A stretch of DNA of 35,108 nt from NCBI GenBank assembly GCA_018829905.1, contig JAHJST010000015.1, forward strand, positions 1 through 35,108, read 5' to 3'. The DNA comes from Patescibacteria group bacterium (GTDB lineage: Bacteria; Patescibacteriota; Minisyncoccia; RBG-13-40-8-A). Shown in pieces: positions 1-1,946 of this stretch. Made by a program: the position numbers and the translations under genes. The notes under the pieces were generated by a model. It saw only the letters and a list, made by a program, of their open reading frames with translations. It did not search any database and was not told the origin of the DNA. The number at the start of each line of letters is the position of its first letter. The stretch's first letter is position 1.

Positions 1-484
1 AATTATCAAAAAACTTTTTAATATCACATTTTAGATAATAGAAATTGATTTTATTATTTTTGCTCATTTTTATACAAAAACAGTTTAATCTATTAACTGC
101 TTTATGTGTTCCTTTGTTTTTTCTACAAGAATAAGAATCAAAGATAAAAGATTTATTAAATACTTGTTCTAAATATTTAGCTATTAAATGATGAACTATT
201 CTATCTTTAATTTTGGCTTTATGAATATGTCTTAATTTTGGATCCTGAATAAAAAATGAAGAATAATTAGAATGTTTATATGTTTTATCTTTTAATTCAT
301 AATACAATTGGAATATATTATCTTCTAAATTAAATTCAAATTCTTGAACATCTTTTCTTTTTGATTTTCCTTTTTTAAACTCTTTCCATGATAAGAATAA
401 ATTTTCTAAAGTTATTAAATCATCATAATTATTAACAACTTTATTATTATGACTATTAACAACATTGACATCCCATTGATTCAT
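1..484 (-). CDS. DGR-type reverse transcriptase, N-terminal part (continues beyond the window)
   Basis: An open frame reads leftward from an ATG at 484-482 to the window edge, giving 161 residues; in-frame stops lie just upstream of that ATG. The order of motifs fits a group-II-intron/DGR-like reverse transcriptase: NLFLSWKEFKKGKSKRKD (~28-45), the early RT motif around HIHKAKIKDRIVHHL (~86-100), FDSYSCRKNKGTHKAV (~115-130), and the palm motif YYLKCDIKKFFDN (149-161) with the first catalytic Asp at D154. The YxDD box and thumb would be past the edge. No clear Shine-Dalgarno precedes the start. The first 36 bases overlap, antisense, the start of avd. The role is copying the TR RNA into mutagenised cDNA. 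The identity as the DGR enzyme rests on motifs plus the adjacent TR/VR pair. Confidence 0.92.
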   Translation of the reverse strand, partial: MNQWDVNVVNSHNNKVVNNYDDLITLENLFLSWKEFKKGKSKRKDVQEFEFNLEDNIFQLYYELKDKTYKHSNYSSFFIQDPKLRHIHKAKIKDRIVHHLIAKYLEQVFNKSFIFDSYSCRKNKGTHKAVNRLNCFCIKMSKNNKINFYYLKCDIKKFFDN

Positions 485-811
485 AAATTTTGTGAATTCT
501 ATAAAAAAATATATTTATTATCTTCTAAGATTCCCAAAAAAGATCGTTTTGGAATTTGGTTAAAAATTGAAAATATTTGTTTAAATATTTTCGATTTTCT
601 AATAAATGCTTCTCTAGAATTAAAAATTAACAAACCACCAATATTAAATTCAATCAGAATAAAAACTGAAACCATAAAAAGATTAATTAGAATTGCATAT
701 GAATTAGATATTATTTCAAGAAAAACATACATAGAGCTAGAATCAAATTTACAAGAATCTTCTAAAATGATAAATGGTTGGATAAAGTATTTATCAAAGA
801 AATCCCAATAA
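449..811 (+). CDS. avd: Avd-like accessory variability determinant, four-helix-bundle protein
   Basis: 120 residues, largely helical and basic. The block IPLIHKFCEFYKKIYLLSSK followed by IPKKDRFGIWLKIENICLNI matches the opening two helices of the Avd/S23-like four-helix-bundle family that accompanies DGR reverse transcriptases. Avd proteins form pentameric, positively charged barrels that bind the RT and are needed for mutagenic homing (family knowledge). It sits between TR and RT, as in many DGRs, but on the strand opposite both, and its 5' end overlaps the RT start by 36 bp. No convincing Shine-Dalgarno precedes ATG449. An intrinsic terminator overlaps its last codons. Confidence 0.88.
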   Translation: MTINNIDIPLIHKFCEFYKKIYLLSSKIPKKDRFGIWLKIENICLNIFDFLINASLELKINKPPILNSIRIKTETIKRLIRIAYELDIISRKTYIELESNLQESSKMINGWIKYLSKKSQ

Positions 812-829
812 TATGGGATTTCTTTTTTG
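796..829 (+). terminator. Intrinsic terminator of avd
   Basis: A perfect 12-bp stem (796-807 with 814-825; core aaatccca/tgggattt) with a 6-nt loop, running into a T-rich tract on the plus strand (to 829). The avd stop codon (809-811) lies in the loop. The leftward TR transcript would also meet this hairpin, but on that strand the U-tract is weaker. Confidence 0.75.
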
Positions 830-841
830 TAGAAACTTCTC

Positions 842-958
842 ACGGGCACGCAAATTCGGATTAGCATTATCAGGATGATAGTAATTGACGTTGAACTTGT
901 CATTATCGGAATTCCAGTTCACATTAGGAACATTGCCATCAGAATAACGCGAGCCAGA
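842..958 (-). repeat. DGR template repeat (TR)
   Basis: 117 bp that, read on the minus strand, make 39 codons matching residues 194-232 of the target protein. There are 20 mismatches to VR, all at TR adenines (12 A>G, 5 A>T, 3 A>C) and none at the other 87 bases. The 30 A's lie in 19 codons, ten of them AAY, always at codon position 1 or 2. Past the end at 842 the similarity continues imperfectly for 11 nt (831-841 vs 1239-1249) after a 1-nt gap, as expected for an IMH/IMH* type boundary. At the other end similarity stops abruptly near 958/959. The TR is probably part of a non-coding RNA; the open frame running through it is a by-product of its origin. Confidence 0.95.
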
Positions 959-986
959 TACTTTGTCTGATTCCACCTGTTTCACC

Positions 987-1008
987 AATAATCTTTATCA
1001 AGATTATT
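987..1008. other. Inverted repeat just upstream of TR
   Basis: Perfect 9-bp arms, aataatctt and aagattatt, separated by 4 nt, about 28 bp upstream of TR in the direction of TR transcription. There is no U-tract on either strand, so it does not look like a terminator. It may be a structural element of the TR RNA or an operator; function unknown. Confidence 0.5.
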
Positions 1009-1129
1009 TGAGTTAACCAGCTCTTTGCTGAAATTTTTTATGAAGCAATTATTTTAATAATGTCTTCACCAAAATCAAACAAGCAGTTTCTTAGTTTATT
1101 GGCAAATCGCTATCTTAAATTTAAGACCG

Positions 1130-1169: not shown

Positions 1170-1205
1170 ATATATAAAAAAGGGGTTCGGACAAGGCCGA
1201 ACCCC
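1170..1205 (-). terminator. GC-rich hairpin / terminator after the DGR target gene
   Basis: A perfect 9-bp stem, ggggttcgg (1182-1190) and ccgaacccc (1197-1205), with a 6-nt loop. On the minus strand it is followed by TTTTTTATATATTTTTTT. It starts 27 nt after the target stop codon. It reads as a strong intrinsic terminator. DGRs of the BPP-1 type also need a GC-rich hairpin downstream of VR for homing, so this element could serve both purposes (inference). Confidence 0.8.
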
Positions 1206-1232: not shown

Positions 1233-1946
1233 CTAAAAAGAAACTACTCTACGGGCACGCAAAAGCGGAGAAGCACAACCAGGACGAAAGTAAATGACGC
1301 TGAACTCGTCATCATCGGAACTCCAGCCCACACTAGGAACATGGCCACCAGAACAACGCGAGCCAGAGCAAAGAGTCCAACTTTTCATATCAAGATGTTT
1401 TTTAAACCTCCAAAGAATAAAATCACCAAGAAGAATTCTTTCTTTTAAGGTTCCTGTGTTAATGCCTTTTTCTTTAATCTGATCTGCTGAAAGATTTTTG
1501 AGTGTTTCATCTTGATTTGCTTCCAAATTTGCACGAAAACGGACAATATAAGGATCTTTTTTGGAATCTCTACCAAAAGACAGATCAAGAACATCATCGA
1601 GTGATTCTTTTGTCCATTTCCATCTTCCAGATAATTTCTTTCCCCCACTAAATGCTCGTTCTGTGGAGAAATTTTCTGGGCTACACGCAAACCAAGAAAA
1701 ATCATTATCGTCCGCTTTTGGAATCGAAACTCCTGCAAAATCAACTTTTAAATTATGAACTTTGAAAAAGAACTTTTCCCAATCATTAAGAATGATTGAG
1801 TAGTCTAGGCCCTCAAAAGGATTCAATCCTTTTAAAAACCTTTCCAATTGTTTTGGCGTCTTTGATCCATCTCGAAGTTTAAGATTCAAATCCGCCAACA
1901 TGCCAAGCACACTACCCGGCACATCACCGACCATATCCTTTTTCAT
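1233..1946 (-). CDS. DGR target protein with C-terminal variable lectin-type region
   Basis: 237 residues. Residues 1-~165 form a non-variable domain I cannot assign, with features seen in CPR DGR targets (LNLKLRDGSKTPKQLERFLK near 20-39; NLSADQIKEK ~151-160). Residues ~166-237 are the variable module: WTLCSGSR (190-197) leads into VR (194-232), and the protein ends LRARRVVSF, the framework expected of a C-type-lectin/formylglycine-generating-enzyme-like fold. Sixteen residues differ from the TR-encoded version. There is no signal peptide or membrane segment, so its location is unclear. The start is well set: AAGGAGG (1953-1959) lies 6 nt before ATG1946, and a strong promoter is upstream. Base composition is visibly less AT-rich than in neighbouring genes, with CGT/CGC arginine codons in the variable module. 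Confidence 0.9.
   Translation of the reverse strand: MKKDMVGDVPGSVLGMLADLNLKLRDGSKTPKQLERFLKGLNPFEGLDYSIILNDWEKFFFKVHNLKVDFAGVSIPKADDNDFSWFACSPENFSTERAFSGGKKLSGRWKWTKESLDDVLDLSFGRDSKKDPYIVRFRANLEANQDETLKNLSADQIKEKGINTGTLKERILLGDFILWRFKKHLDMKSWTLCSGSRCSGGHVPSVGWSSDDDEFSVIYFRPGCASPLLRARRVVSF
1251..1367 (-). repeat. DGR variable repeat (VR)
   Basis: 117 bp aligned base for base with TR 842-958 and encoding residues 194-232 of the target. The invariant framework includes SGSR, VP, W208 and LRAR. Substituted residues are 198, 200, 202, 205, 207, 209, 212, 214, 216, 218, 220, 221, 223, 224, 226 and 228. The GC-rich stretch ACGGGCACGC (1251-1260, plus strand) is identical in TR and would be the initiation side of mutagenic homing. 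Confidence 0.95.

Follow-up and report, generated by a model that had tools for sequence, protein, structure and literature searches.

How do cells hold in check the mutagenesis carried out by their own DGRs? Such restraint is poorly understood, and the question is posed afresh by a locus in which the genes of two DGR proteins begin inside each other. The DGR of Bordetella phage BPP-1 is an avd-TR-brt operon: the gene of the accessory variability determinant (Avd), the template repeat (TR) and the reverse transcriptase (RT) gene are codirectional, retrohoming requires Avd, RT and TR each, and the stretch between TR and RT folds and recruits RT-Avd (PMC12875486). The locus considered here lies at the left end of contig C13 in a Patescibacteria genome of 641 kb and 27 contigs; we analysed the entire contig, 35,108 bases, hereafter the window. 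A preliminary description of its sequence pointed to a head-to-head overlap between divergent RT and avd genes and set this layout against the codirectional order of well-known DGRs. It proposed that the two promoters, each within the other gene's coding region, would make transcription of RT and avd mutually exclusive or interfering and so might limit mutagenesis.

Control of another kind is known from contingency loci. In Campylobacter and Neisseria, poly-G tracts give such loci translational phase variation (PMC4965091, PMC5084427).

Here we examine the overlap in the window and in homologous loci of the phylum. We conclude that DGR mutagenesis in this family is quite probably under a stochastic phase-variation switch that is hosted by the head-to-head overlap. 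The overlap would host it in about half of the loci, and the RT gene in another sixth. Among the papers searched, we found no report that joins DGRs with repeat-based phase variation.

A bona fide DGR at the left end of the window

The element lies on the minus strand apart from avd, which is on the plus strand and sits between TR and RT. The 5' part of the RT gene (2..484, minus strand, 161 aa) is truncated where the contig begins, at base 1. It begins at ATG 484, the sole ATG, GTG or TTG before the conserved core, and matches the PHROG reverse transcriptase family (E 1e-44). Although the window RT is cut, the 98% identical copy on contig C4 carries IPLGNLTSQ and YTDD, in keeping with the LGxxxSQ motif and YxDD site of a DGR-type RT. 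The avd gene (449..811, plus strand, 120 aa) begins at ATG 449, with a possible in-frame start at TTG 476. Its product matches Pfam bAvd above the cut-off (E 2e-12, 47.9 bits against 40), PHROG Avd (E 1e-13) and NCBIfam DivGenRetAVD (E 9e-14, under that model's cut-off). The two coding starts thus overlap head to head by 36 bp (449..484), as had been described, and TR (842..958, on the RT strand) is indeed convergent with avd.

The target gene (1233..1946, minus strand) encodes a variable protein of 237 aa that found no match in a Pfam search. AAGGAGG stands ahead of its ATG, the variable repeat (VR; 1251..1367, RT strand) forms its 3' end, and an intrinsic terminator with a 9-bp stem and T6 lies downstream (1182..1205, minus strand). 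Over 117 nt, VR is changed at 20 of the 30 TR adenines and at no other position. With differences confined to TR adenines, a DGR-type RT and an Avd, the window element is a bona fide DGR; the differences themselves may be read as a record of past retrohoming activity only.

How does this element compare with known ones? Like BPP-1 it has an Avd, a TR, an RT and a target gene that ends in a VR; in both, TR and VR differ specifically at adenines, and TR lies upstream of RT on one strand. It departs from BPP-1 in that avd is inverted between TR and RT, the TR-RT spacer is antisense avd, and relatives of the window bear a putative switching repeat. In its phylum, its cellular host and a target without a recognisable domain it resembles the DGRs of Patescibacteria (CPR) that Roux et al. 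2021 place in their clade 2, a paper that makes no mention of Avd, gene orientation, frameshifts or phase variation (PMC8144416).

The genome holds a second DGR on contig C4, with RT from 769 (minus strand), avd at 722-1084 (plus strand), TR at 1268-1130 and VR at 1676-1538. It has the same head-to-head layout, here with a 48-bp overlap. The two RTs are 97-98% identical and the two avds 31% identical. At the DNA level, positions 1-464 of the window are 97% identical to 274-737 of L005; avd, TR and target differ, and the identity of the two cassettes breaks off no more than 16 nt into avd. This breakpoint, at the junction of avd and RT, looks like gene conversion or a module swap. Separate RT 3' ends with YTDD on contigs C16 and C18 point to two RT genes whose near identity broke the contigs. 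A further match, on C24, proved to be a short AT-rich stretch inside an unrelated gene and was dismissed.

Head-to-head avd and RT genes across the phylum

Is the layout peculiar to this genome? RT and PF22296 searches covered one set of 380 genomes from the phylum; the relatives named below are Patescibacteria unless stated. Of 115 RT hits for which an avd was listed no more than 3 kb away, 107 were head to head. We then fetched 140 loci and built an Avd profile of our own, which gave 143 RT loci with avd, 120 of them with a detected TR/VR pair; 135 of the 143 are head to head. In 113 of 114 head-to-head loci TR shares the strand of RT, with a median of 19 nt between the end of TR and the avd stop codon. 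Head-to-head avd and RT genes are the conserved, usual layout of Patescibacteria DGRs, and the contrast with the codirectional order of BPP-1 is real and holds across the phylum.

This conservation excludes an assembly error as the cause of the layout. Nor does a later start abolish the overlap: avd from TTG 476 would still leave 9 bp, RT has no later start, and an alternative start sought in RT and avd of the C4 cassette was found in neither.

In all head-to-head cassettes the TR-to-RT spacer is the antisense of avd (450-811 in the window). One stretch of DNA may thus encode Avd on one strand and an RT-recruiting spacer RNA on the other. A hairpin is common between TR and the avd stop, at 790-842 in the window and at the same place in 113 relatives; the best stem averages 6.7 bp there against 4.2 bp in shuffles, reaches at least 8 bp in 41 of the 113, and averages 4.8 bp in the interval 3' of VR. 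It is possibly an avd terminator or a piece of the TR RNA.

Simple sequence repeats at the junction

In 39 of the 135 head-to-head loci, avd or RT or both lack any in-frame ATG, GTG or TTG. The N-termini of these startless genes are often of low complexity (THTHTH, RERERE, LSLSLS, PPP/GGG). Non-canonical start codons were considered and dropped: nearly all of these loci have an ATG past the repeat in another frame, which points to out-of-phase reading.

A strict simple sequence repeat occupies 71 of 132 head-to-head junctions. The types are G8-13, (GT)6-14, (GA)9-18, (CT)10-23, (ATTG)7 and (CTGTC)7-8; among junction repeats, none has a unit divisible by three. Strict repeats occur at 5.9 per kb in the junctions and at 0.033 per kb elsewhere in the same loci, a 180-fold excess (binomial p 4e-112). 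The relatives therefore have non-triplet repeats in the 5' coding region far over background, as contingency loci do. Shorter tracts such as G7 or (GA)5 stand in six further junctions. Homopolymeric G tracts are commonest (51 of 71), and all 51 read as G along the RT strand, never as C, adding proline to Avd and glycine to RT. Forty-one of the 132 loci, including the six with a short tract, have no strict repeat either here or at the RT site described below; the repeat by itself thus does not account for the layout.

One genome, G183, holds six DGRs (L056, L058, L059, L062, L094 and L097). Four of their junctions carry (GT)n of 6.5 to 12.5 units in differing phases, one carries (GA)n, and one has no repeat.

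Reading frames opened by one phase in three

In 69 of the 71 repeat-bearing loci avd lacks an ATG between the repeat and its core and, if it starts at ATG, must read through the repeat. Exactly one phase of three opens avd in 57 loci; as assembled, 14 are ON and 43 OFF. A single open phase with both states present is again what marks a contingency locus. About half of the junction loci offer RT an ATG of its own beyond the repeat, so that only avd would switch there.

What of the loci in which RT too must read through? Where both genes can be opened, the RT-ON phase is the avd-ON phase in 28 of 28 loci, and where each gene has a single open phase the two coincide in 17 of 17. The 28 are not independent events: a single geometry is common to 15 of the 17 single-phase pairs, and common descent thus contributes to the coincidence.

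OFF loci are not dead: mutations in their VRs affect 56% of TR adenines, nearly as many as the 62% in ON loci.

Repeats inside RT and turnover of the tracts

A repeat lies inside RT in 22 loci. Most are (GA)n near residue 200, directly before the GxPxGNLTSQ motif; two lie near residue 146, and two have only 5 units. Each such locus has a single longest phase, full-length RT is read in one phase of three, and ten are open as assembled. The two sites are mutually exclusive: 20 of the 132 head-to-head loci have an RT-internal repeat, and none has it together with a junction repeat (Fisher p 3e-8).

On a tree of the RT core, built with the repeat sites left out, the repeat site (junction, RT or none) shows at least 39 changes, and the junction unit at least 10. 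One genus has a tract in almost every matched locus, from G8 to G13, with (TTCG)9 in the same slot once. Because relatives were sampled as one genome per species, from draft assemblies, tract lengths are compared between related species and paralogues; orthologues 82% identical have G9, G9 and G8. As a control for repeats in DGR RT loci, though not for layout, we took 80 viral loci, 66 of them with TR/VR. None of the 80 has such a repeat, and our Avd profile found no Avd in them.

The window copy

The window itself departs from most of its relatives. Positions 1-2000, which include avd and RT up to the contig start, contain no simple sequence repeat in either gene, and the C4 sister cassette has none either; in both cassettes avd and RT are in frame. 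The window, C4 and the nearest relative, G001, form one clade on the RT-core tree (SH-aLRT 96). G001 carries G11 in the junction, with RT and avd both out of frame with the ATGs before the tract. When the window is aligned with G001, the homologous RT and avd ATGs are kept and a gap falls where G11 lies. The avd of G001 (locus L023, on its contig C18) has an in-frame mid-gene stop besides its out-of-phase start, and it may be decaying.

A switch cannot be claimed for the window copy, which lacks a repeat. We infer that this copy and its C4 sister are either a derivative locked ON or a form to which the repeat was never added. The overlap of the window copy has the same geometry that lets one repeat act on two genes in relatives, and in most of them the homologous slot holds a putative phase-variation repeat.

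Discussion

The sequence itself shows the layout, the repeats with their locations, the frames and the coinciding phases. The picture is completed by inferred steps: slippage in living cells, failure of translation in copies that are out of phase, and a consequence for mutagenesis. The two coding starts run across one stretch of a few dozen bases, so that one slippery repeat placed there would fall in the sequence for the N-terminal part of Avd and, in roughly half of these loci, in that for RT as well. Slipped-strand mispairing would add or drop units of 1, 2, 4 or 5 nt, moving avd, or avd and RT together, into or out of frame. Mutagenesis would then be ON in some cells and OFF in others, reversibly and stochastically. 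In cassettes without a junction repeat, a repeat in RT near residue 200 would often have the same effect. That BPP-1 retrohoming depends on Avd as well as on RT and TR (PMC12875486) counts in favour of a switch acting on avd and RT. The earlier suggestion that the overlap helps to limit mutagenesis, as a control point, looks correct.

The form of control first suggested fares less well. Promoters within each other's coding regions could lead to polymerase collision, or pairing of the mRNA 5' ends could hold both genes down. The geometry lends itself to this: the 36-bp overlap makes the mRNA 5' ends complementary across both start codons, and transcription from TR to RT would be antisense to the whole of avd. 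A promoter scan gave 11 sites against 6.6 +/- 2.5 in shuffles, however, which is not clearly over chance, and RT, being codirectional with TR, may be transcribed from upstream of TR with no promoter of its own inside avd. Mutual exclusion is likewise at odds with the relatives, in which both genes open in the same phase, as expected of joint rather than exclusive expression. Interference also leaves the repeats unexplained, and we regard it as unlikely.

Could the overlap be a mere by-product of a small genome, with the junction serving as a breakpoint at which cassettes swap RTs? The two cassettes of this genome, with their near-identical RTs, dissimilar avds and identity that stops at the start of avd, fit such modular exchange. 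Compactness and exchange would not account for the 180-fold excess of non-triplet repeats, the mutual exclusion of junction and RT-internal repeats, or frames open in one phase of three, and we think it improbable that they are the whole explanation.

A phase-variation switch presupposes changes in the genome itself. Repeats might instead act through RNA polymerase slippage or ribosomal frameshifting, which would fix a low amount of full-length protein in every cell. The prevalence of G homopolymers and the many copies that are out of frame as assembled would suit this. Units of 2, 4 and 5 nt are atypical substrates for polymerase slippage, yet they occupy the same slot, and tract lengths vary among close relatives; we give this reading a little less credence still. 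Poly-G at read ends is a known artefact of two-colour instruments and every locus comes from a draft assembly, but it is very hard to believe that sequencing or assembly artefacts would recur at a constant place, always with G on the RT strand, in several unrelated units and at a 180-fold local excess, and be absent from all 80 viral loci.

If the repeats do form a phase-variation switch, what kind of switch is it? Its likeness to poly-G contingency loci lies in tracts whose units are not triplets, set in the 5' portion of the coding sequence, with one open phase of three; the differences are that the switched genes here belong to a targeted mutator and that one tract is translatable from both strands by two genes.

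Haemophilus influenzae offers a parallel in its divergent fimbrial genes hifA and hifB, where a tract between them sets the spacing of overlapping promoters. There too a single tract between divergent genes governs both together; here the tract lies within overlapping coding starts and not in a promoter spacer.

Repeats also occur outside the phylum. Two DPANN archaeal loci, L200 (Pacearchaeota, G9) and L201 ((AG)10), carry one at the same place in RT, closed as assembled. It seems likely, if somewhat less so than for the family itself, that across Patescibacteria and at least sporadically in DPANN, DGR hypermutation is a bet-hedging trait governed by a contingency repeat, with the head-to-head tract translated on either strand and RT and Avd switched on or off together by a single slip. 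If so, two classic sources of diversity, phase variation and targeted reverse-transcription mutagenesis, would act in series within one of the largest radiations among bacteria. DGR activity would become predictable from repeat length in any assembly, mutator switching could be measured straight from metagenomic reads, and many CPR RT and avd genes, being out of phase, may have been overlooked or called pseudogenes.

One further archaeal locus, from an Aenigmatarchaeota genome (L197), is arranged differently. Its avd and RT are codirectional, and G10 lies at their junction (2964-2973); two extra G would join the avd and RT frames into one ORF of 493 aa.
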